Below are positions 9,245 through 25,423 of a stretch of DNA of 64,000 bases, one piece after another. Source of the stretch: Luteibacter sp. OK325. GTDB lineage: Bacteria > Pseudomonadota > Gammaproteobacteria > Xanthomonadales > Rhodanobacteraceae. The notes under the pieces are model-generated. The model saw only the letters and a list, made by a program, of their open reading frames with translations, ran no database searches and was not told the origin of the DNA. The translations under genes were made by a program, and so were the position numbers. Each line of letters begins with the position of its first letter. Positions within the stretch are counted from its first letter, which is position 1. The stretch lies in assembly GCF_003050935.1 (NCBI RefSeq), contig NZ_QAOX01000002.1, positions 744,001 through 808,000 of the forward strand, read 5' to 3'.

Positions 9245-9392
9245 CCTCGTATCCTCAATGGGACTAGTGCCTACCGGCGGATCGACGCAGTGGTTGGCCT
9301 TGCAAGACTCGTCCGAATCCGGTGTCGCCCCCCCGTAAACTTACTCCAGACATAATCCGAGGTCGCCGGGCAAGATATCCCCAAGGAGACCC

Positions 9393-9485
9393 ATGATGCG
9401 TAAGAGCAATTTCACCGAGAGCCAGATCGTCGCGACGCTTAAGCAGGTCGATCGGGGCCGTCGAGAAACAAAGGCACGTGAATGA
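9393..9485 (+). pseudogene. IS3-family transposase OrfA remnant
   Basis: A 30-codon frame begins MMRKSNFTESQIVATLKQVD, the characteristic start of the IS3-family OrfA helix-turn-helix protein, and then breaks into unrelated sequence ending at a TGA. AAGGAG precedes the ATG. Only about the first 20 residues match, so this is the 5' scar of an insertion sequence. It marks the boundary between chromosome-like genes and the mosaic to its right. Confidence 0.7.
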
Positions 9486-9566
9486 AGCAGACAACCTTAG
9501 CGTATTCATTACGAACTTCAGGCAGCGAACAACCGGGCTTCGATCCGTCTCACGCGACGACAGCCG

Positions 9567-10763
9567 TCAGCATACGAGTGCGCCGCAGTCGGCGCGACCA
9601 GAAATGCTCACGAGGTAGATTGTAAAGGGGTCCCCCGCGAGTTCGCGAAGAAGAAATCGAAGTGTTTGCACAGTATGCAGCGTTTTACCCTTCGCTCGCG
9701 CGCCCTCCTCCGTTCCGTCGTAAGCATTTAGTGCCTTGCAAACACTCCTCAGAATCGATTTCCCACAGGTTCGAAGCTTGGGATCACTGGATTCAAGTAG
9801 GTGAGAATACAATTTCGATAGTTCGACGGCTCCGCGAAACCCAAGCGGCCGAATCACATTCAGTCCTTCTTCGAGATATTCCCAGGCTAGTGCCTGACTC
9901 ATGCAATCGGTAATGAAGTTGAACGAAAGTCCCGATCGCATGGAGATTCGAATGGGGTCACAGTACGCGATCTGCGTAATGGTCGTAATGTCTTCCTTTG
10001 CAAGACGCGTCGAAATGTCGTTGTTCACACCCTGAAGCTTCATGACTTCGTCCGTTTCCGAGCGAAGGCTAAGAAACTCAGAGAATCTCGATTGACAAAG
10101 AAACAGACGGCGAAGCATTCGGTGGGTCTCACTTAATGGAAACGCGGCAATCGCGAATGCAATGAACGCCGCTGCCGTCATCCTTTCGGGTTCTGCGCGG
10201 GGCGGGATGGAGGCATAGAAGTAAACAAAGGCGTACCCAAGCGGAATCGAACCTGCGATACGTAGCGTACCCCAGTGCACATCAGACGGAGAAAAATCGA
10301 GCCGGCGCGCACGCGTTATGAAATCATTCGTTACCCATATGAACGCGCCGGCAAGCGCGGTCATCGCAGGAATAGGAAGCGCGAATACCAACGGAATCCG
10401 TGCCGAGCAAGTGACTGCGTCGCAGAGTAATGCCGCCAAAGCTGTCACCTCGACGTACGCACCTATTGTCGCCACAACACTCACAATGACGAGGGGCCAG
10501 TTAAACCAATGCTCTCCGTACCATTTTTCATATTCAGACTTGAGCTTTTCGGCGTTCTTGATTGGCGTATCCGAGACGTCGGTTGCCTTGCAAAACATCC
10601 TGAAGTAGTAACCTGCCGCGAGAGGGCTTTGCCCATCCAGAATCTCCAGCTGTTTGATCTTTTGACCCGCCTTCATGTATCGGATAACGGGGAACACAAC
10701 TATGCAGGGTATGAAGACGATGATCAGGCACTGCACCAACAGAGAGGTCAAGTGATAGCTCAT
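9567..10763 (-). CDS. Membrane protein with C-terminal helical hairpin-like domain, unknown
   Basis: 398-residue protein. Hydrophobic segments lie near residues 5-30, 90-120, 130-150, 175-195 and 200-225; the C-terminal half is soluble and helical, with a stretch (IAYCDPIRISMRSGLSFNFI) that resembles a helix-hairpin-helix-like repeat unit. No family is recognised. An AGGTGAT ribosome site precedes the ATG at 10763, while the frame is open to 10907. Base composition is visibly more AT-rich than the neighbours, which suggests transfer. It stands alone between an IS remnant and a helicase remnant, a place where defence or toxin genes often sit, but no function can be stated. Confidence 0.6.
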   Translation of the reverse strand: MSYHLTSLLVQCLIIVFIPCIVVFPVIRYMKAGQKIKQLEILDGQSPLAAGYYFRMFCKATDVSDTPIKNAEKLKSEYEKWYGEHWFNWPLVIVSVVATIGAYVEVTALAALLCDAVTCSARIPLVFALPIPAMTALAGAFIWVTNDFITRARRLDFSPSDVHWGTLRIAGSIPLGYAFVYFYASIPPRAEPERMTAAAFIAFAIAAFPLSETHRMLRRLFLCQSRFSEFLSLRSETDEVMKLQGVNNDISTRLAKEDITTITQIAYCDPIRISMRSGLSFNFITDCMSQALAWEYLEEGLNVIRPLGFRGAVELSKLYSHLLESSDPKLRTCGKSILRSVCKALNAYDGTEEGARAKGKTLHTVQTLRFLLRELAGDPFTIYLVSISGRADCGALVC

Positions 10764-11336
10764 GAGATCACCTTTTATTTTTCGAATGCCGATTTCGCCA
10801 CCGAGTGGGATGGGATCGGCACGATAACTGTCGGTTGCCGATGCCCGCGGTGACGCCTCGAGTCCATGACATCGATGACTATCAGCCGCCGTCGCTTCCA
10901 TTGACAATCATCCATTCGACCTAAGTAAACGGACCATATCTGCCTTGCCGAAAATGTCGTGTAACAGGTTTGGCACAGTAGAGAGCGGTCACTTGGAGGC
11001 TATCAATGATGCGTGTTTACGCACTCCGACACAGGCATAGATAAGCGAATAATCGTCGGCTCACGTCAGAGGTTCGTGCTTCACGCGCCGATCGGCGCGC
11101 TGCGCAGCCATCTACCGACAGAACTCAAGGGACCGCTCGGTGTACACGGCACTTGAACTCGGCGACCGTGGCTAAAGTGCACAACGAGATCCGTGCGATG
11201 CTTGACCTTCCTTCGCAGAAATGCGCTCCTCCCCAGCCGAGCTTGGCAGTCATAGATACAACTCACGGGAGTAGTTTTCTGCTGTGCTCGTTAGACCCGG
11301 GTCCGGACGATTCGGATCGAGGAAGTTGCCCCCTTC
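10764..11336. other. Non-coding stretch, with a 16-base palindrome
   Basis: No gene is supported. A perfect palindrome CGCGCCGATCGGCGCG lies at 11084-11099. The helicase-like frame downstream is closed on its 5' side by a TAG at 11292-11294, so the missing part of that gene is not here. Otherwise this looks like junction debris. Confidence 0.35.
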
Positions 11337-11768
11337 ATGCCAGAAACCACGCTTGAAGCCTTCGCGGCCCTCGCCGTGTTTGCCGATCCAACAGGTGATG
11401 ACGACGCGCCAGTCCCAAAGAGCTTGCTGCGGACCTGTGCTGTGGCAGCGGGCGGCCGCAGTGTCAGCGTCACCGTTGACACCGTGGGCAACACCAAGGG
11501 GGAGACGCAACTCGCAACGCTCTATCTCGAGTCCATCGGACGCTATTCGAAGCGGTTCGATGTGGTCGAAGCCATCGCGCGTCAGACCGGGCGCAAGACG
11601 GTCAAGGGCAAGCCACTCAAAACCCTCCCCGCCCAGATGCGTCATGCCTACGTCGGGTTTTCCCGGCCCACGCGTTTTCTGTGCCTCGCCGTCAACAGTG
11701 AACGGCTCAACGCGGATGACCGGAAAATCCTCATCGATACAGGGTGGCGCGTGGACGACATGGGCTGA
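11337..11768 (+). pseudogene. C-terminal remnant of a UvrD-like (superfamily 1) helicase
   Basis: The 143-residue frame holds the end of a UvrD/Rep-type ATP-dependent helicase: NTKGETQLATLYLES matches the KGET motif region, and MRHAYVGFSRPTRFLCLAVN matches the late YVGxSRPTHLLCLA motif. All the N-terminal motor motifs, including Walker A and B, are absent, and an in-frame TAG closes the frame at 11292. Helicases of this type occur alone or beside OLD nucleases in Gabija-like defence systems; which one this was cannot be told. It is a deletion remnant and unlikely to be active. Confidence 0.65.
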
Positions 11769-11982: not shown

Positions 11983-13116
11983 TCAAAGCCGCGCCCGCCC
12001 ACGCCCCTCGCCCTGCCCCTGCGGCAACGCCTGGTTCAACCACCAGCGCTCGATGATGGCGCGTGGTGCAGGCGACAGCTTCTCGTCGGGCGTCTCTCCT
12101 TCGCAGTCTTTTGCATCTGGCGACAGGCCGTGTGCAAGCAGCCACGTGCAGACCCAGGGCGAATCAGCCAGGTGAAGCAGGGATTCTCCGACGTCGGAAT
12201 GTTCCGCATGGAAATCGGCAAAGCCTTCGAAGAGCGGCATCAGGTGCACGTCGCCCGCGCGCGAGTCGAGGATGGCAGCCAGACCCAGCGCGTCGGCACC
12301 GGACCAGTCCTCGTACGGATCGCCAGGGTTTTTTCCACACGAGAAAAAGCGCCCGGCTTCCATGGCCCCGAGTTTGAGCAACCCGTGGACGCGCGCGGAG
12401 TCTCGTTCGCGCAAGGCGTGGACAATCTCGACCGTCGCGTCGAAGCGGGCAATGAGCGGCGGGGTGCCCGATGCCGAACTCGGCCGCACGGTGTCCGCAT
12501 GCTCATAGCCCAGCGCCGCCATGTCGGCCACGACACCTGGGGATACGACGTGGGCGACCAGGGCGTCGGGCACGGGGCGAAGACAGCGCTCAAACCATGG
12601 GTAGTTCTTCCCCCGAAGGGCCATCACCAATGGGATTGGGGTCCCGTCCACGTCTAGATGGCCGGGTGTTGCATTGGCACCAAAAACCTTGGTGCCGGCG
12701 AGCTTGCCGAGCGCATCGAGCAGCTGCGCGCGCAGGCCTTCGGGCACGGGCGCCCCGTGTTCGAGCAGATAGCGCGCAACGACGTGGTGCCAAGCGAAGT
12801 GCAGCAACGTCCGTCCGCGCGAATCGACCTGGTTGATGTTGCCGCCCCGGTTCAAGAGGAGCGGGAGAAAAAGCAACTCCCCGCGTGTGCTGTCGACGAG
12901 GGCCGCCATGGACGTGGGCGTCAGGCCGACGACGTCGTCATCATGGATGTCCGGGGTGTAGGACAGGCACTCAAGCGTGGGGTCGGCGCGGTCGGCAAGG
13001 CACATCGCCGCGTGGGCAAGGTCCCGATACTGGATTGCGAGGCCGAGGGCCAGGGTTTCATTGATCGGGCCGAACCGCGACGTGTTCGGAGGCAATATGC
13101 AGGGCATTCTTGGCAT
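11983..13116 (-). CDS. Ankyrin-repeat protein
   Basis: 377-residue soluble protein. Ankyrin-like units are visible at both ends: GRTLLHFAWHHVVARYLLEHGAP and GESLLHLADSPWVCTWLLAHG, with further helical pairs between them. No signal peptide or membrane segment. The start was set at the ATG at 13116, with AAGGA eight bases upstream; the ORF is open to 13353. It is divergent from the export operon beginning at 13563 and shares its 446-base upstream region. Ankyrin proteins bind other proteins; a role in immunity to, or regulation of, the neighbouring operon is only a guess from position. Confidence 0.65.
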   Translation of the reverse strand: MPRMPCILPPNTSRFGPINETLALGLAIQYRDLAHAAMCLADRADPTLECLSYTPDIHDDDVVGLTPTSMAALVDSTRGELLFLPLLLNRGGNINQVDSRGRTLLHFAWHHVVARYLLEHGAPVPEGLRAQLLDALGKLAGTKVFGANATPGHLDVDGTPIPLVMALRGKNYPWFERCLRPVPDALVAHVVSPGVVADMAALGYEHADTVRPSSASGTPPLIARFDATVEIVHALRERDSARVHGLLKLGAMEAGRFFSCGKNPGDPYEDWSGADALGLAAILDSRAGDVHLMPLFEGFADFHAEHSDVGESLLHLADSPWVCTWLLAHGLSPDAKDCEGETPDEKLSPAPRAIIERWWLNQALPQGQGEGRGRARL

Positions 13117-13562: not shown

Positions 13563-14837
13563 ATGGAAAGCGGACTTTTTCGCAAGGAAGCTCTCGATAG
13601 GAAGCGCGGCGACGCACTCGGTCCGGTGCGTATTGTCGCCCCCCTCTCGCAACGCTACGCCATGCTCGCGTCAATGGCGTTCGCCGTTTGCGTGATTGCT
13701 TGGCTCGTACTGGGAACCTACACGCGCCGCGTACATGTGTCTGGCGTTCTTGTTCCCGCCGCAGGATTGATTGACGTGTCTGCCCGCACCCCAGCCACCG
13801 TCACCGCCGTCATGGTGAGAGAAGGCGAGCATGTCCGGCAAGGACAACCCGTTGTCGCTTTGTCTGCCGAGCGCAGCAGCGAAGCGCTCGGCGCGACGTC
13901 CGCGTCAATCATTGGCAATCTCCGTGCGGACGTGCAGCGTGTCGAAACAGACATTGCCCAGGCAAAGCGGCTCAGCGAGGAACAACTGACCGCACTTCGC
14001 GGACAAATTGCCACCGCGAGACAGCAGGTAAGCGACATCGACGGGCAGATAGTCCTTCAGAAAGCCCAGATCGATTTGCAGCAGGCGATGCTCGTGAAAG
14101 TGGCGCCATTGCTGGAGAAAGGATTCATCTCGGCTTTCCAGGTCCAGCAACAAAAGTCCGACTTGCTCAACACGCAAGTCCAGGTCAAAACGTTGCAGAG
14201 GCAACGCGCAGACACTGCGCAGCAGCTCTCAACGGCGCTCGCCCAGATTGCGCAGACGCCCATGCAATTGTCGGCCAAGATCAGTGAGCTGAACGGACAA
14301 AAATCTGCAGCGGAACAGGCCTTGGCCCAGGCTGAAGCCGAGCGCTCCATGGTCCTGCTGGCACCAACGTCCGGCGAGGTGTCCAGCGTCCTTGTCAAGT
14401 CCGGACAGGCAGCAGCAGCTTCCCAGACCCTTGTCTCTATCGTTCCGGACGACACGAAACTCGTTGCGCAGCTTCTGGTCAAGAGCGAGGCCGTTGGACT
14501 TGTCGGTGTTGGCAGGGACGTCGCCATTCACCTCCAGGCCTACCCCTACCAGAAGTTTGGCGTCCAAAAGGGCGTGATTTCGTCCATCTCGCGAAGTGCC
14601 ATGAACCCGCAGGAAGTCGCTTTCATTCTCGGCCAGGCCCAGGTCGAACCCGACCCTTTGTACCGGATTGATGTTGCGCTCGCGTCCCAGCAGGTCACTG
14701 CCTACGGCCGTTCAGAGCTCTTGAAAGCAGGGATGACCCTCGATGCCGACCTTCTCCTCGACCGGCGCAGCCTCATTGAATGGATGTTCGAGCCGCTCAT
14801 TGGCATGAAGAAGCGCTTTGAGGACCACCGGCCGTGA
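13563..14837 (+). CDS. HlyD-family periplasmic adaptor of a type I secretion system
   Basis: 424 residues: cytoplasmic N-terminus, one transmembrane helix (about 36-56), a lipoyl/barrel-sandwich half (GVLVPAAGLIDVSARTPATV), a long coiled coil (about 110-260, Gln/Ala rich) and the second barrel half (MVLLAPTSGEVSSVLVKSGQ). This is the CvaA/LcnD-like membrane-fusion class that links an inner-membrane ABC exporter to an outer-membrane TolC. The start at 13563 has GGAGG eight bases upstream; the longer frame from 13428 does not. Its stop overlaps the start of the ABC exporter (GTGA), so the two are translationally coupled. No TolC gene is in the operon. Confidence 0.85.
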   Translation: MESGLFRKEALDRKRGDALGPVRIVAPLSQRYAMLASMAFAVCVIAWLVLGTYTRRVHVSGVLVPAAGLIDVSARTPATVTAVMVREGEHVRQGQPVVALSAERSSEALGATSASIIGNLRADVQRVETDIAQAKRLSEEQLTALRGQIATARQQVSDIDGQIVLQKAQIDLQQAMLVKVAPLLEKGFISAFQVQQQKSDLLNTQVQVKTLQRQRADTAQQLSTALAQIAQTPMQLSAKISELNGQKSAAEQALAQAEAERSMVLLAPTSGEVSSVLVKSGQAAAASQTLVSIVPDDTKLVAQLLVKSEAVGLVGVGRDVAIHLQAYPYQKFGVQKGVISSISRSAMNPQEVAFILGQAQVEPDPLYRIDVALASQQVTAYGRSELLKAGMTLDADLLLDRRSLIEWMFEPLIGMKKRFEDHRP

Positions 14838-17023
14838 GCACGCCCGCAGAGGACAAGATCGTGGACGGCGAAGGCTGGAGCGAGCTTCTCCAGATGCACC
14901 CCCGCCGTCGCCTTCGGCTCGTGCGCCAGACGGAAGCGGCCGAATGCGGGCTTGCCTGCCTGTGCATGCTCTTGGGGTACTTCGGCCATCACACCACCAT
15001 GTCGGAACTTCGCCAGCGGTTCCCGGTGTCCATCAAGGGCACAACGCTCGGTGAACTGGTTCGCTGGTGTGAGGCGTTGCAGCTGGTCGCTCGTCCCGTC
15101 CGGCTCGAAGTCGAGGAACTCGGCGACCTCCAGCTCCCGGCAATCTTGCACTGGAATCTCGACCACTTCGTTGTCCTGAGCGAAGTTTCCAGCGCACACG
15201 TCGTCATCCAGGACCCTGCCGGCGGCACGCGGAAGGTTTCAACGAAAGACGTTGCGTCCATGTTTACCGGCGTGGCGCTTGAGATAGGGAAGGGCCCTGC
15301 TTTCCAGCGCAAGAAAGCACCTCCGTCTGTCTCACTTCGAAAGCTCGCCGGGTCGGTCAGGGGCATCGGGTCGTCGCTGCGCAACATCTTTGGCTTTGCC
15401 ATCGCGCTCGAGGTGATTGCGCTGCTGATGCCACAGCTGCTGCAAGTCGTCGTAGACCAGGTCCTTGCGGACTCGGACCACGACCTGCTCATGATGGTCG
15501 GTCTCTCGTTCGTCATGCTCGTCGTCGCCCAAACGGTCATCACGGCGTTTCGCACATGGTCTGTGGTCTGGCTGAGCACGCATTTTACGATGAACTGGAC
15601 GGGCCACGTCTTCCAGCACCTGATGCGGCTGCCGCAAATCTACTTCCTCAAACGCCATCTTGGTGATGTCGTATCCCGGTTCGGGGCCATCTCGGTCATC
15701 CAGCAGAGCCTGACCACCCAATTGGTCGGCGCCATGCTTGACGGCCTCATGGCCGTGGCGACGCTCGTGCTTATCGCCATATACAGCCCCGTGCTGACAT
15801 GCATCATCGTCGCCAGCGTCAGTGTGTATGCCCTGCTCCGCATCGCGTACTTCCGCTCGTTCCAGGAAGCCAATCTCAGCCAGATTGTGATGAACGCCCG
15901 GCAGCAGACCAGCCTCATGGAGTCCATCCGTGGTGTGCAGACCATCCGGCTGAACAACCAGGCAGCCATGCGCTCCGCGCGTTATCTCAATCACACCGCT
16001 GACGCGCTCAACACGCAGGTCTCCGTGCAGCGGCTGACCCTAGCCTTTGACGCGATGAGCGGATTGTCTTCCGGCCTCCAGCGCGTGGGAGTCCTGTGGC
16101 TGGGCGCGTGGCTGGCACTGAAGGGCGATATGACGGCGGGCATGCTCATGGCCTTTGTCAGCTACGCAGACCAGTTCACCACGCGTGCTACTGGCTTTGC
16201 CGACTACCTCATCCAGTTGCGCCTGCTCAGACTCCAGGGCGAGCGCCTTGCCGACATCGTGATGATGCCGCCGGAACAGCACCTCCACGGCACCTATGCG
16301 GGCCCCACGCCGGCGCCGTCCATCCGGTTCGACAATGTCAGTTTCCGGTATTCGGAGTCGGACCCGTGGATCCTGCACCGGGCGTCGTTTGAAATTGCTG
16401 CCGGGGAGTGCGTGGCCATTGTCGGGCCCTCCGGGAGCGGCAAGAGCACTGTCTTGCGCCTTCTCCTCGGGCTCCTGGACCCACAGGCGGGCAAAATTTA
16501 CGTAGGTGGCATCGAGTTGTCGCAGCTCGGCAAGAGCGCACTCCGGTCTTTGCTTGGAACCGTGTTGCAAGACGACAAGATGTTTGCAGGAACTGTGTCC
16601 GACAACATCTCCTTCTTCGATGACGACGCAACGCCCTCCGATGTCCGCGACGCCGCAAGGCGCGCTGAAATCGACGACGACATCAGCGCCATGCCAATGG
16701 GCTACCACTCCTTGGTCGGCGACATGGGGTCGAGCCTCTCGGGGGGTCAGCAACAACGGATTTTTCTCGCGCGGGCCCTGTACCGGAAGCCGTCCATTCT
16801 CGTTCTCGACGAGGCCACCAGTCATCTGGACATCGAACGGGAACGTCGGATTGCAGCGCTCTTGAAAGAGATGCAGATGACGCGGGTCTTGGTCGCCCAC
16901 CGACCGGAAACCGTCTCGACGGCTGACCGGGTCCTTGTTCTTTTGAACGGCCAGCTGATTGCAGCGAGCATCCAGACCGCCAGTCCGTCCACGGCCGATG
17001 CCGACGAGACAGAGGCAGCGTGA
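14834..17023 (+). CDS. Peptidase-C39 ABC exporter (bacteriocin-type, CvaB-like)
   Basis: 729 residues in the standard order: N-terminal C39 cysteine peptidase with catalytic C38 (QTEAAECGLAC), H111 (NLDHFVVL) and D127 (IQDPAGG); six-helix membrane domain (about 180-450); nucleotide-binding domain with Walker A GPSGSGKST near 531, signature LSGGQQQR near 635 and Walker B LVLDEATSHLD near 657. Such proteins cut double-glycine leaders and export the cargo through HlyD and TolC. All catalytic residues are present. The substrate is very probably the next gene, which carries a colicin V-like leader. Its GTG start overlaps the HlyD stop. Confidence 0.9.
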   Translation: MSTPAEDKIVDGEGWSELLQMHPRRRLRLVRQTEAAECGLACLCMLLGYFGHHTTMSELRQRFPVSIKGTTLGELVRWCEALQLVARPVRLEVEELGDLQLPAILHWNLDHFVVLSEVSSAHVVIQDPAGGTRKVSTKDVASMFTGVALEIGKGPAFQRKKAPPSVSLRKLAGSVRGIGSSLRNIFGFAIALEVIALLMPQLLQVVVDQVLADSDHDLLMMVGLSFVMLVVAQTVITAFRTWSVVWLSTHFTMNWTGHVFQHLMRLPQIYFLKRHLGDVVSRFGAISVIQQSLTTQLVGAMLDGLMAVATLVLIAIYSPVLTCIIVASVSVYALLRIAYFRSFQEANLSQIVMNARQQTSLMESIRGVQTIRLNNQAAMRSARYLNHTADALNTQVSVQRLTLAFDAMSGLSSGLQRVGVLWLGAWLALKGDMTAGMLMAFVSYADQFTTRATGFADYLIQLRLLRLQGERLADIVMMPPEQHLHGTYAGPTPAPSIRFDNVSFRYSESDPWILHRASFEIAAGECVAIVGPSGSGKSTVLRLLLGLLDPQAGKIYVGGIELSQLGKSALRSLLGTVLQDDKMFAGTVSDNISFFDDDATPSDVRDAARRAEIDDDISAMPMGYHSLVGDMGSSLSGGQQQRIFLARALYRKPSILVLDEATSHLDIERERRIAALLKEMQMTRVLVAHRPETVSTADRVLVLLNGQLIAASIQTASPSTADADETEAA

Positions 17024-17134
17024 AGCTTCTGCCCATTGAGATTTGTCTGGTGCCGGCCCCTGTCGCCGGCCCGGATGACAAACCGAAGTCCGGGACGGTG
17101 AATTTCCGGACACCCTCACATGGAAAAGATTGCA

Positions 17135-17683
17135 ATGCGTACTCTTACTAAGGACGAGCTTGAGTTGGTTGCGGGTGGCCTTGATACGATTGTCGTTAAC
17201 GGGCCAGGTGGCTCGGGTGACGGCGGCGGCAATGGCGGTTGGGGCGGCGGTGCCGAGGGCGGCAGCGGCGGCGGTGGTGGTGGCGGCAGTGGCAGCGGCA
17301 GCGGTAGTGGTGGCGACAGTCCGGCACACGGTGACGCGCCGCCGGTTGATGCAAACTTCACGTTCCACGCCTCCGACAACGCGCAGTCGCCGGGTGTCAA
17401 CCACGGCAACTGGACCTTGTCTGCGGGGGACTGGGCCTTCTCGGGCGCCATGGACATCACCGACGCCGGTCACATCAACACCCTGTCTGCCAATGCGAGC
17501 CTGACGACGCCGAACGGAACCTTCGTGTTCAGCTCGTCGAGCCCGGGCACGGGCTTCGTCCCGAGCGTGGTCGGCGGATATGACTGGGATCTCGGAAACG
17601 GGTTGCAGCTTCACTTTGATGCTGGCTTCAACACCGGCAACGACGAAGTGTCTGCCCATCTCCAGGTCAAATACACTTTCTGA
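17135..17683 (+). CDS. Double-glycine-leader precursor protein with Gly/Ser-rich linker (putative C39 exporter substrate)
   Basis: 182 residues. The first 15, MRTLTKDELELVAGG, closely follow the colicin V leader pattern (MRTLTxNELxxVxGG), so the C39 peptidase should cut after GG at residue 15. The core is about 167 residues: a short segment (LDTIVVNGP), then some 45 residues that are almost only Gly and Ser, then about 105 residues of predicted beta structure (FTFHASDNAQSPGV; GGYDWDLGNGLQLHFDAGF) ending in an aromatic residue (VKYTF), as outer-membrane beta proteins do. No Cys, so no disulfide or lanthionine. This is much longer than classical microcins. The start at 17135 is preceded by GGAAAAG; an ATG at 17120 is also in frame. 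The Gly stretch recalls microcin B17 and E492, but no relationship is claimed. Confidence 0.75.
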   Translation: MRTLTKDELELVAGGLDTIVVNGPGGSGDGGGNGGWGGGAEGGSGGGGGGGSGSGSGSGGDSPAHGDAPPVDANFTFHASDNAQSPGVNHGNWTLSAGDWAFSGAMDITDAGHINTLSANASLTTPNGTFVFSSSSPGTGFVPSVVGGYDWDLGNGLQLHFDAGFNTGNDEVSAHLQVKYTF

Positions 17684-17689
17684 TTCACC

Positions 17690-17711
17690 GGAGGGGCGCG
17701 CGCGCCCCTCC
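17690..17711 (+). terminator. Perfect 22-base palindrome after the precursor gene
   Basis: The 11 bases at 17690-17700 (GGAGGGGCGCG) are followed at once by their exact complement (17701-17711). It starts seven bases after the precursor stop and is followed by a short T run in CATTTAG. A hairpin here could end some transcripts, or protect the precursor mRNA so that it is made in excess of the downstream enzymes. Confidence 0.6.
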
Positions 17712-17731
17712 ACCATTTAGGTAAGACTTCC

Positions 17732-19039
17732 GTGACCAACGCTCATACCAGATTGTGCCTCCTGACCGCCCTTCTCTCCGCAAGCCTTGCGTCGGCGAGT
17801 GTCGCGGCGCAAACCCCCGGCAAGCCTGCACTGAAGTACAACGACATGTCCGACAACACCGGCGTCATCAAGGCGGTCGAAAGCGGAGACAGTGAGGCGT
17901 TGCTCGCGCTGGAGAAAAGGCCGCCCTCGCCGCTGACTGCCCTGTTTGCGAAGGCTGCCCGCGCGCGCATCGGCATGGATTTCCAGGCATCAACGGCGGC
18001 AGCAAACCAGTGCATTGAAGAGAGTCAGAAACAGAAAAACATGGTCCAGGAGCTTGCCTGCGCCATGCTGAAAGCCGGCAACGAGCTCCTCCAGGATCAC
18101 CCCGGCGAGTGGGCGCGACAGCTGAATGCCATGAGGACGAAATTCTATCCTCTGCTGCGGCAATCGCAGGGTCAGGCGTTCGCGTTGAGCGATCTCGAGA
18201 AGATCCCGGATTACGCACCGTTCCTGCAGTTCAAAGACGACGTTGCCATCGAAGGCAACAGCGGCGCGCCGTGGTCCCTCGGCATCCACGTTCTCAAGAA
18301 GGGCCCGCTCAATCCGGTATCAACCATTGAGCCCATGGCAGTCGAGGTCCGCTCCGGGGAGACCCGTTTTGATGCGGTGCTCGACACCGCAGGGCTCATG
18401 TCCCTGCTCAACAGCCCGACAGCGGAAGCTCTCGGCATTCACGCCATTCCCCACTGGATTTCGACCGGTAGCGGCGACTCGGGGCTTGGCACGGTGCCTT
18501 CCCTCTCCATCGGCCAGGTAACCTTGCGCAATGTGCCCATTGCGGTGGGGTCGTCGGGCACCCCCAACGTCATCGGGCTGGGCACCTTGCGCCAGCTGGG
18601 CCAGGTCACCTTTTCGTCGAAGGTGGTTGTCGTCGGTGCAGATGCCCCGGCCCGTTGCCAGACCCATCCCCTCGTCATGCGCTCCACCCTCATTGGGACC
18701 GCGCCAAAGCTCATTGTTCCCATCGAGGTCAATGGCGGCCGCGTGCGCGCCGTGCTCGACACCGGCTTTACGGGGGTGCTTGACCAGTACGGCACGGACA
18801 ACCCCGACGAGCTCAACGGCAAGGTCGAACAAACCATGCAAATCACGGCGCAGGGCCCCGTTGCTTCGACGTATGTGGTCAAGAGCAAACAGATTGGTCT
18901 CGGAGACGCAAGCCAGCAGGTCGCCGTCCGGGTGCGCGCGGCAAAGTCTGGCGTGATCTATGTGGCCGGCCTCAAGCTTCTCGACGGCACCAGCGCCTAT
19001 ATCGATTTCAACCGCCGGGTGATGTGCTTTGGCGGTTGA
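17732..19039 (+). CDS. Secreted two-lobed retropepsin-like aspartic protease
   Basis: 435 residues with a Sec signal peptide (residues 1-27, cut after SVAA). After a helical region of about 150 residues come two Asp_protease_2-like lobes: AVLDTAGLMSLL with D218, and AVLDTGFTGVL with D343, each preceded by VEV-type strands. Retropepsins need two Asp-Thr-Gly loops; here both are on one chain, so it may work as a monomer, although the first loop is DTA. Likely periplasmic or surface exposed. It sits 48 bases after the precursor gene, which makes the precursor, or a bound target, a plausible substrate. The start is a GTG at 17732 with AGGTAAG upstream. Confidence 0.75.
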   Translation: MTNAHTRLCLLTALLSASLASASVAAQTPGKPALKYNDMSDNTGVIKAVESGDSEALLALEKRPPSPLTALFAKAARARIGMDFQASTAAANQCIEESQKQKNMVQELACAMLKAGNELLQDHPGEWARQLNAMRTKFYPLLRQSQGQAFALSDLEKIPDYAPFLQFKDDVAIEGNSGAPWSLGIHVLKKGPLNPVSTIEPMAVEVRSGETRFDAVLDTAGLMSLLNSPTAEALGIHAIPHWISTGSGDSGLGTVPSLSIGQVTLRNVPIAVGSSGTPNVIGLGTLRQLGQVTFSSKVVVVGADAPARCQTHPLVMRSTLIGTAPKLIVPIEVNGGRVRAVLDTGFTGVLDQYGTDNPDELNGKVEQTMQITAQGPVASTYVVKSKQIGLGDASQQVAVRVRAAKSGVIYVAGLKLLDGTSAYIDFNRRVMCFGG

Positions 19040-19069
19040 GGCAGGCTCGCTGACGTTGAAGCGGGCGCA

Positions 19070-19879
19070 ATGAAGACGGCCCGCACCCGAACGGCTGCGC
19101 CAGCTCAGGCCACGATAAAGGTGGTGACCCGGCAAGCGGTGGTGCCGCCGACGGCCGCCAGCCTTTCACCTCGGTTGATTGATATGGCCCGGGAAGCGGA
19201 TTTATTGCTGCCGTCCCTTGGGATTTTTCCTCTTCACCTGGCGGTGTCCGAGCTGGTGCCGGAAGACGACGCCGTTTGGACGGCGCTCGAGCATCCGCTG
19301 TCGTTTGCAGCACCGGCCTCAGAAGTGGCTGACGGCTGGTTGCGCACGCAAGACGAGCTGCGCACGCTCCAGCACCGCCAGGACGCCCTTCGGGACGCGT
19401 TGGCGGCCCCTGACATCGAATCACTCATGCGCTTGCTCCCGGCTCTTTGTAGTGGCGTCACCGGCCGTGCGGCCGTGACCCACCCTTCTGGCAGAAACCG
19501 GACCGAGCCTTTCATGGGCGTCAGCGTCGCCTTCCTCTCCCCCGAGGAAGGCATCGCATCATTTGAGCGCATGCGCGTGTGGCTTCGTGAGAATGCCGAC
19601 CTTCCAGCGGTCATACGCGCGAGTGTGGCCCTCGCCACCGTGACCAACGTGCATGCCTTCGGCGACGGCAACGGCCGCGTGGCAAGAATCCTTGCCAACC
19701 ACGTGCTGCTGGCCAACACCGCCCCGGGCGCTTACGTCCCGTTGCATGAATACGCCCTGGGCAGCCGCAGGAGCCTCACGTTTCGCATCCGGGAAGCGGA
19801 GCTGCGGAACGACTGGTCCGGTCTTGTCGGCTTTGTCTCCACGGTGGTGACCCACTGGGCGACCCGTTCCACCACATAA
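19070..19879 (+). CDS. Fic-domain protein
   Basis: 269 residues. The C-terminal half contains an intact Fic motif HAFGDGNGRVAR (H195 to R206), preceded by the usual helix (VIRASVALATVTNV) and a flap-like segment. Fic enzymes transfer AMP, or less often other phosphate-containing groups, from nucleotides to a protein hydroxyl. No inhibitory (S/T)xxxE(G/N) helix is obvious, which is why a separate regulator, or a dedicated target, would be expected. The N-terminal 100 residues have no recognised domain. It is cytoplasmic. It lies 30 bases after the retropepsin gene and 32 before the nucleotidyltransferase-like gene, within one operon. Confidence 0.85.
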   Translation: MKTARTRTAAPAQATIKVVTRQAVVPPTAASLSPRLIDMAREADLLLPSLGIFPLHLAVSELVPEDDAVWTALEHPLSFAAPASEVADGWLRTQDELRTLQHRQDALRDALAAPDIESLMRLLPALCSGVTGRAAVTHPSGRNRTEPFMGVSVAFLSPEEGIASFERMRVWLRENADLPAVIRASVALATVTNVHAFGDGNGRVARILANHVLLANTAPGAYVPLHEYALGSRRSLTFRIREAELRNDWSGLVGFVSTVVTHWATRSTT

Positions 19880-19911
19880 ACCCGCCTACACCCATTATTG
19901 GACCCGCCATC

Positions 19912-20445
19912 ATGGACACCCGGACGCATCAGGACCCTGCGACAGAACGATTCCTGGCAGCGGCGGCGGCCTCGTTTCCGGTCTTTACACCGAGCGAGCG
20001 CGAGAGCACGCCCCAGAACTCGACCCCGTATGTCATTGGCATCGACAGCTTCAAACGGATAGCGTCCACGTGGCCCGGCCGGGAGGATTTGGTCGGCAAG
20101 CTGGTTGCAGCACTGGACGGGGCCACCCACGCTGGCATCGCGGTTGACTTCGTGCTCATCGGCGGCAGCTTTACGGTCCTTGCCAACAGTGCCCCCCGCG
20201 ATCTGGATGCGGTGTGCCTTTACCGCGTGGCCGATGAGCACCTGTTCGACGCCGGCCAGCTGAAGGTGCTCCAGTCGGCGTGGAAAAGACTTGGCCTGGA
20301 CGCCCGGCTGGTTCCCTGCGATGGCGACCCACTCGTTCTCATCAAGACCATTTCATACTTCAGCGTTCTGTATTCCAAAAAGACCGGAGACATGGTCGTC
20401 AAGCAGGGCCTGGTGCTGGTCGATTGCAGGGACAACGGCACGTGA
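19912..20445 (+). CDS. Nucleotidyltransferase-fold protein (DUF6932-like)
   Basis: 177 residues. The segment VDFVLIGGSFTVL (GGS at residues 84-86) followed by PRDLDAVCLY (D97 and D99) is the glycine-serine loop and DxD metal-binding pair of the polymerase-beta nucleotidyltransferase fold, as in DUF6932-type proteins. A C-terminal helical part follows. It could add a nucleotide to a protein, sugar or small molecule, or act as an antitoxin-like partner for Fic; neither can be told from sequence. The stop shares one base with the start of the WbsX gene (TGATG), so the two are coupled. Confidence 0.6.
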   Translation: MDTRTHQDPATERFLAAAAASFPVFTPSERESTPQNSTPYVIGIDSFKRIASTWPGREDLVGKLVAALDGATHAGIAVDFVLIGGSFTVLANSAPRDLDAVCLYRVADEHLFDAGQLKVLQSAWKRLGLDARLVPCDGDPLVLIKTISYFSVLYSKKTGDMVVKQGLVLVDCRDNGT

Positions 20446-21527
20446 TGGACAACGACATCCGCGCCATTGCCATGTACCTGCCGCAATTCCACCCGGTGGA
20501 GGAAAACGACACGTGGTGGGGAAAGGGCTTTACCGAGTGGCGCGCAACGAGCCGCGCGCGCCCTGCCTTCGAAGGCCACCTCCAGCCGCATGAACCAGCG
20601 GATCTGGGCTTCTACGATTTGCGCGTCGGGAAAGTCCGGCAGGCACAGGCTGACCTTGCCCGCACCTACGGCATCCACGGTTTTTGCTATTACCACTACT
20701 GGTTCGACGGCAAGCGCATCCTCGAACGCCCTCTCGACGAGGTCCTCCGGCTCGGCTCCCCCGACTTTCCGTTCTGCCTTGCCTGGGCAAACGAGCCCTG
20801 GGTCAGGAGCTGGACCGGCCAGCCGGACGATACGCTCGTCCCGCAAAGCTACGGCGAAGGCTGGGAAACCCGGTTTTTTCTCGACACCCTGCCTTACCTG
20901 AAGGACCCCCGTTACATCAGGGTCAAGGGTATGCCCTTGCTGCTCGTGTCCCGGGCGCTTGCCATCCCCGACGTCGGCCGTTGCGCAGCGCTCTGGCGAG
21001 CACTGGCGACGTTGCACGGACTCGATGGCCTGTATCTCGCCGCCGTCCAGTCCAAAGACATGGTCGACCCCCGCTTGTGCGGATTCGACGCGGCCGTGGA
21101 ATTTCCACCGTTTGGCGCGCCGATCCTCCGGTATCCGAACGCATCGCTTCCTGGCAAGGCGCCGGAGTTCCAGGGAACCGTTGCCTCCTACGAAGGGTTC
21201 GTCGACACCTGCCTCGAGAAAGACAACCCGCCGTACACGTGGTTTCGCGGCGTCATGCCCGGATGGGACAACTCGCCCAGACGCGGCGACCACGCTATGC
21301 TTTTTGCCGACGGCTCACCCGCCATCTATGAGCGCTGGGTTTCTGGCGTGTCCAGGTGGACCCATCGTCACAGGGAAGACAGCGAACGACTGGTGTTTGT
21401 CAACGCTTGGAACGAATGGGGAGAAGGCGCGCACCTCGAACCTGATCTTGCATCGGGTCACGCCTATCTCGAAGCAACGCGGGCAGGCCTTGCCTGTGTC
21501 CTGGTCGAGAGCGCCATCGAAGTCTGA
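20445..21527 (+). CDS. WbsX-family glycosyltransferase/GH99-like protein
   Basis: 360 residues. It opens with AIAMYLPQFHPVEENDTWWG and continues KGFTEW, the hallmark of the WbsX family (GH99-like TIM barrel, Glyco_tran_WbsX) found in O-antigen and rhamnan loci. Other family blocks are GIHGFCYYHYWFDGKRILERP, CLAWANEPWVRSW and FVNAWNEWGEGAHLEPD. The family is associated with surface polysaccharides; whether it transfers or hydrolyses is unsettled. No signal peptide. Here it is the last gene of the export operon with no other sugar genes, so it may act on the exported protein. The ATG overlaps the preceding TGA. Confidence 0.8.
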   Translation: MDNDIRAIAMYLPQFHPVEENDTWWGKGFTEWRATSRARPAFEGHLQPHEPADLGFYDLRVGKVRQAQADLARTYGIHGFCYYHYWFDGKRILERPLDEVLRLGSPDFPFCLAWANEPWVRSWTGQPDDTLVPQSYGEGWETRFFLDTLPYLKDPRYIRVKGMPLLLVSRALAIPDVGRCAALWRALATLHGLDGLYLAAVQSKDMVDPRLCGFDAAVEFPPFGAPILRYPNASLPGKAPEFQGTVASYEGFVDTCLEKDNPPYTWFRGVMPGWDNSPRRGDHAMLFADGSPAIYERWVSGVSRWTHRHREDSERLVFVNAWNEWGEGAHLEPDLASGHAYLEATRAGLACVLVESAIEV

Positions 21528-21574: not shown

Positions 21575-22246
21575 TTACCGAGGGTCTGGCGTGGCTGTCA
21601 TGTTGCCATTGTCGATGACCCAGCGCGTCTTGGCCTTGCCAGCGGCGTCAAACAGTTTGAGTTCCCCGCCTTTTCCCCGAGCGGTCAGCTCAAGCAGGCT
21701 CTTGTCTCCGACAGCGGCATCGGGATTTTCAAGAACGAAAGTGGCGGACCTGTCCTTGTCATCGACATACATGCCGATGGCGTCGCGCTCGGGATAATCA
21801 AACGCAATGCCGCCCCGACCATTGCTGAGCCATGACATGCCACCGCGCTCGTTGCCGTCAGTGTCGTGGAGCGTAATGCCGACGCCCGCCCCAATGCGGT
21901 GGAAATTCGCCGGAACCACCCCTTTGATTTGGGGTGTAAAGGAATCGCCGACCGTCAGCCTGTCATGACCCTTCTCGTCCAGGAACTCCATCGCGGCCGT
22001 CCGCTCATCGTGGCGGATGCGAGCCGGAACGTCCGGAAACGGCGCACCGATGAGAATGCGGGGATGACCGTTGGCATCCTCAATCACGAGTCCCTTGGCG
22101 TGAATGACGTCGGGCTGGCTCCGTGTGGGTCCGGCGACGGCGAAGGTCGTGCCCAATCCCATACAGAGGACTGCCAATGCGCCGCAGATGACGGTGAGCT
22201 TCGTGTTGCGGGCCTCCAGTGTGGCCAGCCGTGTTTCGATGTCCAT
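21575..22246 (-). CDS. Membrane-anchored beta-rich hypothetical protein
   Basis: 223 residues. A short cytoplasmic coiled segment (MDIETRLATLEARNTKLTV) leads into one membrane helix (about 17-38), then a periplasmic part with repeated motifs (KGLVIEDANGHPRILIGAP; ITLHDTDGNERGGMSW; ELKLFDAAGKAKTRW) that look like short beta units. No family name can be given. The start at 22246 has AAGGGAAG upstream; the open frame to 22396 is a run-on. It converges on the WbsX gene, 47 bases away, and is the last gene before the first integrase scar. Confidence 0.55.
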   Translation of the reverse strand: MDIETRLATLEARNTKLTVICGALAVLCMGLGTTFAVAGPTRSQPDVIHAKGLVIEDANGHPRILIGAPFPDVPARIRHDERTAAMEFLDEKGHDRLTVGDSFTPQIKGVVPANFHRIGAGVGITLHDTDGNERGGMSWLSNGRGGIAFDYPERDAIGMYVDDKDRSATFVLENPDAAVGDKSLLELTARGKGGELKLFDAAGKAKTRWVIDNGNMTATPDPR

Positions 22247-23813: not shown

Positions 23814-24242
23814 CTACTTTCCACCAGGGTCGGCCACCTCGACCGACGTAGCATCAATTAGTTCGAGACCAAGATCGCGACACGCGGCAAGACGAATAAC
23901 AGCACCTCTTCCGCTGGCGTCGCTTCGAACGATTCCTGTCGCCTTTACGCGGTGGCCGTCGAGCAGCGAAGCCTTGCCCGAGAGCACGTCGTAGTTCATC
24001 AACGAAATACATTTCCGGGTCTCCCACCGTTCATGGTCGTTCCAGCTTGCCCAAAGGTTCTGGTCCTCACTGCGGAGAGTAATCCACGCGGTGAGCGTGA
24101 CTCGCTTCCCGTTGTAAAGGTCGGGGTGCGCGAGAACATCTTCCATACGAGTGGTCGCCCCCTGATTTCCACCGGCAGGGATGGAGCACGAAAACAACAA
24201 GAGTGACGCTGTCAGTAGTGAAACCTGTGCTCGCATCATCAA
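23814..24242 (-). CDS. Lipoprotein, candidate immunity protein for the island B toxin
   Basis: 142 residues with a lipoprotein signal peptide (hydrophobic segment ending LLFSCS, lipobox Cys near 19). The mature part is beta-rich (NGKRVTLTAWITLRSEDQNLW; GHRVKATGIVRSDASGRG), resembling a small OB-like barrel. Its start overlaps the stop of the core-toxin gene by four bases (ATGA), which strongly suggests coupled expression, as for toxin-immunity pairs. A membrane-anchored periplasmic position would suit defence against a toxin arriving from outside. No family is recognised. Confidence 0.6.
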   Translation of the reverse strand: MMMRAQVSLLTASLLLFSCSIPAGGNQGATTRMEDVLAHPDLYNGKRVTLTAWITLRSEDQNLWASWNDHERWETRKCISLMNYDVLSGKASLLDGHRVKATGIVRSDASGRGAVIRLAACRDLGLELIDATSVEVADPGGK

Positions 24243-25243
24243 TTCTCCGGGCCCGAAAAGTCAGGTCCAAGTTGCTGCTTGTCTAAACTTTTCTGAAGCG
24301 CGTCCGATTCATGTGCCGACATACGACCCTCCAACATCTGGAACTGAAGTCTGCCATTCACCAATTCCGTCACACCGACCCGTCCCTCACTCACTACGCC
24401 GTTCGGGAGACCCTGTGCGAGGGGCCGAGCGTCTGCAGGGCTGACTACGCCGTCGGAACGCCCATCAATATGACCGTGTATGACAGCAACGGCATCCTCC
24501 GGCTTTGCGGCTGTTGCGGAGTCGGTTGTGCGACTACTCGAAGTAGTAGCGTCGGTTGACGCTATGGCGCCAAGTTCTCCTTTGGCATCCCGCTTGATGA
24601 AACCGATTTTCTCTTTCGTTTCTTTTGCGCTAACACTTACCGCACCCATGCCCGATACCATGGCGGCACGCACCGTCGGCGAAGCTTGAACGGTCTCTCC
24701 AGCTGACCGACTAGCGTTGTACGTGTCAGACTGAATGCAGACAAACTTGCTTTGGCCAGGGCAGGATGAGCGTCCATCAAGGTCAATGTTCGTTATTGGG
24801 TTGTCGTTGGCGTAGCTGTAGCGGTTGAACCCATGAGAATCTCCGGCCTTGAGCATAACGGGATCCCGACTGAGGAAGCGACCCGCCGTGGGATCGTAGT
24901 ATCTCGCTTGCATGTAGATGAGCTCCGAGTCCGGGTCGTTCACGTGGCCCGAATAACCTGGTCCGACTTCTGGCGCGCCGAGCGCCTGAATGCCGTAGGG
25001 CCGGTAGTCGGCGTTGCTGATGACATTGCCGGCCGCATCAGCCTTGGCCAGAACCGTCCCTTGGGGACTGGTGTAGTAATAGGTCACCGTCGCCGCAGCG
25101 AATGCCCCCTGGGCGAATGCGAGGGCGAAACCGGTAACTGTCAGGAAGACAGCAATACGGGGTGGCGCCCTGCGCACAGGCCAACCTGATGCCGTGATAC
25201 CGATGCAGCGTTGCCTAATCCGGTCGAGAATCTGCTTCATCAT
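24239..25243 (-). CDS. Rhs core domain protein with JAMM/DUF4329-like C-terminal toxin domain
   Basis: 334 residues. N-terminal signal or anchor segment (about 30-50), then the Rhs repeat-associated core: VTYYYTSPQGTVLAKADAAG, GYSGHVNDPDSELIYMQARYYDP, GRFLSRDP and YSYANDNPITNIDLDG (about 52-157). Downstream of that is the variable part. It contains AVIHGHIDGRSDGVVSPAD: H256, H258, S268 and D271 resemble the HxH...SxxD metal site of JAMM peptidases and the DUF4329 toxins. The start at 25243 gives an N-terminus of the same length as the island C homologue. It follows the large YD-repeat gene by 180 bases. The toxin assignment is inference; spacing differs slightly from classical JAMM. Confidence 0.7.
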   Translation of the reverse strand: MMKQILDRIRQRCIGITASGWPVRRAPPRIAVFLTVTGFALAFAQGAFAAATVTYYYTSPQGTVLAKADAAGNVISNADYRPYGIQALGAPEVGPGYSGHVNDPDSELIYMQARYYDPTAGRFLSRDPVMLKAGDSHGFNRYSYANDNPITNIDLDGRSSCPGQSKFVCIQSDTYNASRSAGETVQASPTVRAAMVSGMGAVSVSAKETKEKIGFIKRDAKGELGAIASTDATTSSSRTTDSATAAKPEDAVAVIHGHIDGRSDGVVSPADARPLAQGLPNGVVSEGRVGVTELVNGRLQFQMLEGRMSAHESDALQKSLDKQQLGPDFSGPEN

Positions 25244-25423
25244 GTCGGTTGCCTGTCCTTGCATTGGTTTTGCTGGAATTGGGCCTTTTATCGTCTCAGG
25301 GGCGCCGATGGGTGCCACGAGACGAGCGTATTTGTAGATCCCTTCCCGTGCCGCGCTTGCCAGCGCACATATGGCAAGCGCTACTCGCGCCGCCGAACCG
25401 GCCGACGACGCGATACCGACACA

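Follow-up and report, generated by a model that had tools for sequence, protein, structure and literature searches.

What does a soil bacterium export when one gene cluster joins a peptide exporter to a retropepsin, a Fic enzyme, a nucleotidyltransferase and a WbsX protein? The question is raised by a seven-gene locus at positions 13563–21527 of a 64,000-nucleotide stretch, the window, of Luteibacter sp. OK325 (contig NZ_QAOX01000002.1, positions 744,001 to 808,000; host genome 4.94 Mb). The first-pass annotation of this DNA proposed an exported protein that is nucleotidylated or glycosylated and then processed by the retropepsin. Comparison with related loci supports this in part: the exported proteins resemble polymorphic antibacterial toxins whose C-terminal domains can be exchanged, not one ribosomally synthesized and post-translationally modified peptide (RiPP). 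We regard the locus as modular and as encoding an antibacterial toxin, not as a classical RiPP pathway, with a probability of roughly 0.55. Taken separately, the product is probably an antibacterial toxin.

The seven genes lie on the plus strand, in one direction and tightly spaced as first annotated, with intergenic spacings of −4, 96, 48, 30, 32 and −1 bases, from which we infer co-transcription. A consensus scan revealed no promoter-like site at the locus, and terminator-like sites were fewer than in shuffled sequences. A Pfam scan assigned a domain family to each protein except the exported one of 187 amino acids (aa). The protein families and motifs named earlier were confirmed, with the nuance that the first retropepsin lobe reads DTA, not DTG. 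The features are as follows.

13563–14837 (+): HlyD-type periplasmic adaptor of a type I exporter, 424 aa (Pfam HlyD_3, 43 bits)
14834–17023 (+): C39 peptidase ABC exporter, 729 aa (Pfam C39, ABC_membrane and ABC_tran; Cys/His/Asp motifs)
17120–17683 (+): exported protein, 187-aa precursor; mature form 167 aa, 16.1 kDa, isoelectric point (pI) 4.1; no Pfam family
17120–17179 (+): double-glycine (GG) leader MEKIAMRTLTKDELELVAGG; same leader type in related loci
17183–17197 (+): TonB-box-like DTIVV, mature residues 2–6, from a position-specific scoring matrix (PSSM); the 9-mer LDTIVVNGP spans 17180–17206
17207–17344 (+): Gly/Ser-rich linker, by composition probably disordered; candidate translocation or modification region
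17345–17680 (+): beta-rich C-terminal domain with aromatic end LQVKYTF, candidate toxin domain (low-confidence AlphaFold2 model)
17732–19039 (+): secreted two-lobed retropepsin-type aspartic protease, 435 aa (Pfam Asp_protease_2/gag-asp_proteas)
19070–19879 (+): Fic enzyme, 269 aa (Pfam Fic, 34.6 bits, cut-off 24; motif HAFGDGNGRVAR from residue 195)
19912–20445 (+): DUF6932 nucleotidyltransferase-fold protein, 177 aa (Pfam DUF6932, 38.7 bits, cut-off 27)
20445–21527 (+): stand-alone WbsX/GH99-like domain, 360 aa (Pfam Glyco_tran_WbsX, 422.7 bits), with a 1-base stop/start overlap with the nucleotidyltransferase (NTase) gene

The exporter and the N-terminus of its product

Related exporters were searched in 23 genomes of the genus and 197 of the family. 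The neighbourhoods examined comprise 16 loci from the exporter search, including the host genome's own second exporter locus (L048), 18 reached through Fic or retropepsin matches, 5 through NTase, Fic or WbsX matches and 20 through the family exporter search; L-numbers denote loci and G-numbers genomes. The closest relatives share the HlyD/C39 pair and a protein with a GG leader adjoining it, the C-terminal part of that protein being different. The HlyD of the window is 36–58% identical to eight HlyDs of related exporter loci. In the second locus of the host genome (contig 8, L048:1910-5746), the gene behind the C39/HlyD pair encodes a GG peptide of 74 aa, which belongs to the small, microcin-like kind.

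The C39 domain of the window carries ECGLAC from residue 37, HFVV from 111 and DPA from 127, and the ABC part retains GPSGSGKST, LSGGQ and LDEAT. The precursor begins with the usual double-glycine leader pattern, and the exporter is expected to cleave behind the double glycine and to translocate the remainder. TolC-type genes lie outside the locus, two of 21 genome matches scoring above the curated cut-off. Export by C39, HlyD and TolC is very probable.

Directly behind the leader the protein reads L-DTIVV. A PSSM was derived from the TonB boxes of 30 TonB-dependent receptors of the host genome itself, out of 56 plug matches, and applied to the first 45 mature residues of GG proteins. The box LDTIVVNGP scored 10.5 bits, with a shuffle p of 0.0002; 29 of 5988 segments from 600 background proteins did as well or better. 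At p ≤ 0.02, 10 of 19 larger GG proteins were positive vs. none of 40 small GG peptides from named exporter loci; since the sequences are related, these p-values overstate independence. When the final 45 residues of these 19 larger proteins were scored instead, one was positive. A score of at least 6.8 bits, a threshold chosen after the scores were known, was found in 11 of 23 GG proteins and in 2.2% of background segments; the 23 leave aside L124, which has no GG leader, and L232, a near copy of L231, and include the small members L113 (102 aa) and L136 (139 aa). No box at p ≤ 0.02 turned up among 14 other, smaller candidates found later. The first 55 mature residues are 49% Gly. At the level of motif, the window protein has a TonB box in a probably disordered N-terminus, as do group B colicins. 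We put import through TonB by the protein's own box at an even chance.

Exchange of C-terminal domains and following genes

Behind one type of leader and exporter the C-terminal part takes four or more forms, assigned partly by eye. The first (L007 and L038, plus L121, whose examined stretch contains no exporter) displays by eye the pattern E-S/T-S-L-G-T...G-L/I-F/Y-Q-Y...T-W, which we take to be a lytic-transglycosylase/lysozyme-like motif (SLT). The second (L045, L120, L117, L288) is marked by N-N-P-G...E-Q-D-G; a PHROGs search of the GG proteins returned weak matches only, one of them to an endolysin (L120, E 0.0019). The third (L040, L292) contains HExxH and has weak, sub-cut-off Pfam matches to DUF6782 and DUF3810. 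The fourth, beta-rich by eye, includes the window protein, L039, L041, L044, L113, L123 and L231. Within it phmmer links L039, L198 (the same protein as in L044) and L124, and likewise L041 and L123; the C-termini of the window protein and L231 are 25% identical in a two-sequence alignment only, and L113 is linked by nothing.

The gene behind the exported protein changes with the domain. All three SLT-motif proteins are followed by a small secreted protein of one family, here F9. A homologue (L038 vs. L128 copies, E 5.7e-40) is present in the host genome on contig 3 (L128:4417-6621), where the gene immediately before it encodes a 519-aa protein that has both an XVIPCD domain (99.3 bits) and a PG_binding_1 domain (68.8 bits). 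According to passages of PMC10933484, XVIPCD proteins are effectors of the bacteria-killing type IV secretion system of Xanthomonadales, and the studied effector that targets peptidoglycan has a periplasmic immunity partner. Because a homologue of F9 follows a protein of this effector type, F9 most probably represents a family of immunity proteins. Among the four NPGN-type proteins, three (L045, L120, L117a) have mutually homologous secreted proteins behind them, one with a sub-cut-off DUF4431 match.

Beta-rich proteins, as here, have the retropepsin behind them. Counting matches of 120 bits or more, it immediately follows the exported protein in nine loci: the window, L039, L041 (three in tandem), L044, L113, L123, L124, L231 and L232. 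In L124 (positions 9286-11568, genome G033) the homologue of the exported protein lacks a recognisable GG leader, yet a retropepsin accompanies it; the cassette may be an orphan or have been re-routed. Retropepsin lobes usually carry DTG; the window enzyme has D218-T-A and D343-T-G, both Asp residues being invariant in eight aligned sequences, its own included. It has a Sec-type signal by eye, and its best solved relative is 9iy9, an 'Exported protein' (E 1.8e-11). Among 38 retropepsins below 250 bits, the 22 examined, scoring 198–245 bits, had no HlyD, exporter-level C39 or Fic match within 1.5 kb; this flank was used for the retropepsin and Fic control sets, vs. about 9 kb for the linked sets.

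The first-pass annotation had seen the retropepsin as an enzyme that processes the exported protein. This assignment has changed: in nine loci it occupies the position that an immunity-type protein holds in lysozyme-motif cassettes, so cognate immunity is no less likely than maturation. Its chances of being an immunity protein seem to us evenly poised, and a maturation role looks unlikely.

Traces of recombination are found in three loci. Truncated copies of the 3' part of the C39 gene in L117 and L288 measure 292 bp (95.5%) and 143 bp (93%), and 740 bp and 479 bp (90%); they separate or adjoin GG-protein cassettes that follow one another. In L231 a direct repeat of the final 104 bp of C39 (102 of 104 identical) reaches across the end of HlyD and flanks a gene for a 171-aa secreted protein. 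Such remnants are what repeated cassette insertion at the exporter end would leave. None was found in the window, L041 or L116, and L044 has only a second, diverged exporter. The cassette arrays themselves span L288:1342-8064, which includes an Stf0 sulfotransferase, and L117:3851-9618. As far as the sequences tell, the exporter is kept and the C-terminal domain and the following gene change together.

These data also bear on another explanation, that the product is a surface or biofilm protein whose Gly-rich stalk carries a beta-rich domain and is trimmed or released by the retropepsin. The Gly-rich linker, the acidic pI and the beta-rich (low-confidence) domain agree with it. On the other hand, in relatives the same type of exporter and leader carries lysozyme-motif and HExxH-motif proteins, immunity-type partners stand behind the former, and the cassettes recombine at the 3' part of the exporter, as in polymorphic toxins. 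We consider such a structural role very improbable.

Recurrence of Fic, nucleotidyltransferase and WbsX

The locus is not a single-strain oddity: most of its genes are found together again in a different genus, and also in a second family. Dyella sp. ASV24 (L113/L144) has the HlyD, C39, Fic, GG-protein and retropepsin genes. G271 and G311 of the second family have the same five plus the NTase, arranged otherwise: NTase, Fic and C39 are consecutive on one strand, and the GG protein, retropepsin and HlyD are on the other. Both belong to one genus and are therefore counted as one case. Conservation beyond this strain thus holds for five or six of the seven genes, and does not hold for their order, which varies.

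WbsX had been included in the set; it is absent from the recurring one, with no recurrence in the related loci examined. As a core component it was rejected: relatives were found in 58 of 197 family genomes, and 61 of the 65 matches listed lie in open frames of at least 677 aa. A stand-alone WbsX gene occurs among polysaccharide genes in L235. The loss of WbsX would not break the model. The glycosylation of the exported protein proposed at first has little support, because WbsX is not in the recurring set.

The window Fic enzyme, with HAFGDGNGRVAR, conforms to the AMP-transferase motif of Fic proteins, HxFx[D/E]GNGRxxR; its relative in L038 has HALPNGNGRLSR, with N at the acidic position. All four members of the Fic profile possess this motif and none the inhibitory motif [ST]xxxE[GN]. 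The profile gave 38 matches, 14 of them at 75 bits or more: the four from which it was built and ten others. Among these ten, a C39 gene lies within 10 kb in L113, L116, L117 and L120 (with HlyD in three of them), L121 is the SLT-type cassette mentioned above, L114 has Fic beside a retropepsin, and L115 and L122 have none of these neighbours. In L118:375-1966 (Stf0 by Pfam) and L119:9550-11154 (by eye) Fic adjoins a sulfotransferase and a secreted protein, with no exporter in the stretch examined; this is perhaps another Fic-containing modification module. Nineteen of the 24 matches below 65 bits were examined and had no genes of the system within 1.5 kb, bar one generic ABC match of 84 bits. 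In a class-wide Fic search at E ≤ 1e-18, the host genome was alone among 350 sampled.

The NTase has GGS-x10-DLD from residue 84 and a third Asp in LDARL; GGS...DxD is the nucleotidyltransferase motif. The DUF6932 profile matched 7 of 299 genomes of the order, four strongly (the host, G112, G271 and G311), and all four strong relatives have Fic within 5 kb and exporter genes alongside. In G112 the NTase gene diverges from HlyD, and Fic is 4.9 kb away with HlyD and C39 in between. The three weak cases are G143 and G092, with no exporter, and G161. A plasmid search with the NTase gave no match, and a contig scan none that was confirmed.

Could Fic and NTase be a module of their own, serving defence or forming toxin-antitoxin cargo, that merely happens to ride in exporter loci? 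The window Fic matches the SoFic model of PADLOC (E 2.7e-11), Fic relatives with no exporter in the stretches examined occur in L114, L115, L118, L119 and L122, and the Fic and NTase genes adjoin in the window and in G271/G311. Against such a module, the strong NTase relatives in the order all sit in exporter loci, and in L121 Fic is part of a toxin/partner cassette whose examined stretch contains no exporter. In exporter loci Fic is mostly found with no NTase, so the two are no obligate pair. A separate module appears improbable.

A RiPP-like pathway would have Fic and/or the NTase modify the exported protein, WbsX perhaps glycosylate it and the retropepsin mature it. In line with it, Fic accompanies three C-terminal kinds (L007/L038/L121; L045/L120; the window/L113/L231), and another NTase and a 2-oxoglutarate (2OG) oxygenase in L042/L043 and the Stf0 sulfotransferase in L288 occur as tailoring enzymes would; moreover, both retropepsin lobes keep the catalytic Asp. 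Set against this are the retropepsin in an immunity-type slot in nine loci, in one of them three in tandem, and a WbsX gene that does not recur; no recognition element or modified residue was identified. We judge this pathway unlikely. The loci at L042:9610-12755 and L043:4722-7875 combine an exporter and a GG protein with an ankyrin protein, the other NTase (Polbeta/NTP_transf_2) and a 2OG-Fe(II) oxygenase/DUF6817 protein.

Modification of the exported protein as such remains plausible, because several loci have Fic, four genomes including the host have strong DUF6932 relatives, and two have another NTase. We tentatively favour the exported protein as the target of Fic and/or the NTase, at somewhat less than an even chance; a protein of the producer is a weaker candidate, and unrelated cargo the weakest of the three.

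Proposed mechanism and known systems

In the modular-toxin reading, the C39/HlyD pair, working with a TolC from outside the locus, would remove the leader and export a 16-kDa protein. This protein has a TonB-box-like motif at its start, then a Gly-rich linker, and at its C-terminus a beta-rich candidate toxin domain. Susceptible relatives would import it by way of a TonB-dependent receptor, in the manner of group B colicins, and its C-terminal domain would have its effect in the envelope. The retropepsin would most likely destroy toxin that enters or re-enters the producer's periplasm, and less likely activate the toxin by cutting it. As cytosolic accessories with a tailoring or regulatory role, Fic and NTase would most likely transfer a nucleotide onto the exported protein, in its linker or TonB-box region, or onto a producer protein of export or uptake; WbsX may be a local add-on. 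That all this amounts to a new bacteriocin class, with microcin-type export, colicin-type TonB import, nucleotidylation by Fic and/or the DUF6932 NTase and periplasmic retropepsin immunity, is doubtful.

Several observations weigh against a modular toxin. With respect to the TonB box, strings resembling VVTAP were noticed behind the leader before any scoring. An initial 10-mer PSSM gave the window box p 0.71, since its Leu is the first mature residue, and 0.0002 was obtained once the weak first column had been dropped. Nine of the 19 larger GG proteins fail the test, and among four found later L292 alone is borderline (p 0.016 and 0.022). As to the toxin domains, Pfam gave the SLT-motif proteins of L007 and L038 no domain, a PDB profile search with the SLT-motif alignment hit only the linker region (by the two alignments shown and the coordinates listed), and the model of the L131 SLT-motif domain failed, with a predicted local distance difference test (pLDDT) score of 36; the lysozyme assignment of L007, L038 and L121 rests on the motif read by eye and on the partner gene. 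The C-terminal domain of the window protein has no Pfam family and no match at E ≤ 0.001 in a fold search, and its all-beta AlphaFold2 model reaches pLDDT 54.9.

The partner genes are not uniform either. The secreted partner of the fourth NPGN-type protein (L288b) has no detectable homology to the other three, L042/L043 have a divergent retropepsin and a GG protein of another type, and L114 has retropepsin and Fic together with no GG protein found. Two low-scoring retropepsins, of L113 (187 bits) and L114 (124 bits), both among the other 16 of the 38, are linked to Fic, so the score makes no clean split between linked and unlinked copies. Finally, Fic was not found in L039–L043 and L123, and near L044 there is only a distant fragment; Fic is therefore not essential to the system.

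Class II microcins of the microcin V type share with the window the double-glycine leader, the adjoining C39 and HlyD exporter and a Gly-rich product. In the sections seen of PMC12511343, uptake is TonB-dependent in the known case, and microcin V is not predicted to have a TonB box. The window protein differs by its own TonB-box-like motif, by a large C-terminal domain exchanged between loci, and by Fic, NTase and retropepsin in the locus. With 167 aa and 16.1 kDa, it was rejected as a class II microcin on size, the limit in the portion seen of PMC10233263 being <10 kDa.

Group B colicins of the colicin M type resemble it in a flexible N-terminus, a C-terminal domain and a TonB box, which colicin M has at residues 2–6 (PMC11658791), where the window protein has its TonB-box-like pentapeptide. 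Group B colicins leave the cell by way of a lysis protein; the locus here encodes a C39 type I exporter, and the leader is of the cleaved kind. The partner of the window protein is a protease, and no central receptor-binding domain was recognised among its parts, a Gly-rich linker and a 112-aa beta-rich domain (poor model).

With polymorphic toxin systems the loci have in common a constant N-terminal export part, a variable C-terminal domain, a cognate partner behind it, orphan cassettes and recombination remnants; exchanged domains, partners that change with the toxin domain and remnants (L117, L288, L231) were found in related loci. The difference lies in small proteins on the C39 double-glycine route. 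PMC3482391, in the part seen, treats C39 as a toxin peptidase domain; 'double-glycine' was not found in passages from the first 300,000 of its 357,715 characters, and a listing of its whole text gives that term one occurrence. With the X-Tfe/X-Tfi proteins of Xanthomonadales the F9 partner family is shared (L128), and the periplasmic immunity logic is as in the passages seen of PMC10933484; the window protein differs in having no XVIPCD, being outside any Pfam family, and in having another partner, the retropepsin.

The combination of such a leader, an own TonB box, exchangeable domains, Fic/NTase and a retropepsin partner was not found in the literature searched, by titles and the openings of abstracts, nor is it described in the portions seen of PMC3482391, PMC12511343, PMC10233263, PMC11658791, PMC10933484 and PMC9576775. 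The literature search also found no work joining a double-glycine leader and a Fic domain to bacteriocins, a retropepsin to bacteriocins, or a nucleotidyltransferase and Fic to lasso peptides. A secreted bacteriocin or polymorphic toxin with a cognate partner is a known kind; the present combination is apparently new.

Some neighbouring genes are worth recording. On the minus strand of the window (24239-30931) an RHS-repeat-like open reading frame (ORF) of 1835 aa, recognised by eye, is followed by a separate RHS-core-like ORF of 359 aa; the pair is possibly another polymorphic toxin with a displaced C-terminal end. The ankyrin-repeat gene at 11983-13116 (−) has a homologue at L045:15912-17162 (−), and both adjoin an exporter locus. 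A homologue of the gene at 21575-22246 (−) adjoins L044.

If the modular-toxin reading is true, two textbook routes, C39 export and TonB-box import, would be joined in a single protein that is both small and modular, and Luteibacter, Dyella and related bacteria would possess a set of exchangeable warheads for it. Fic enzymes would possibly have a new job, on bacteriocins, and the retropepsin would be a candidate proteolytic immunity protein.

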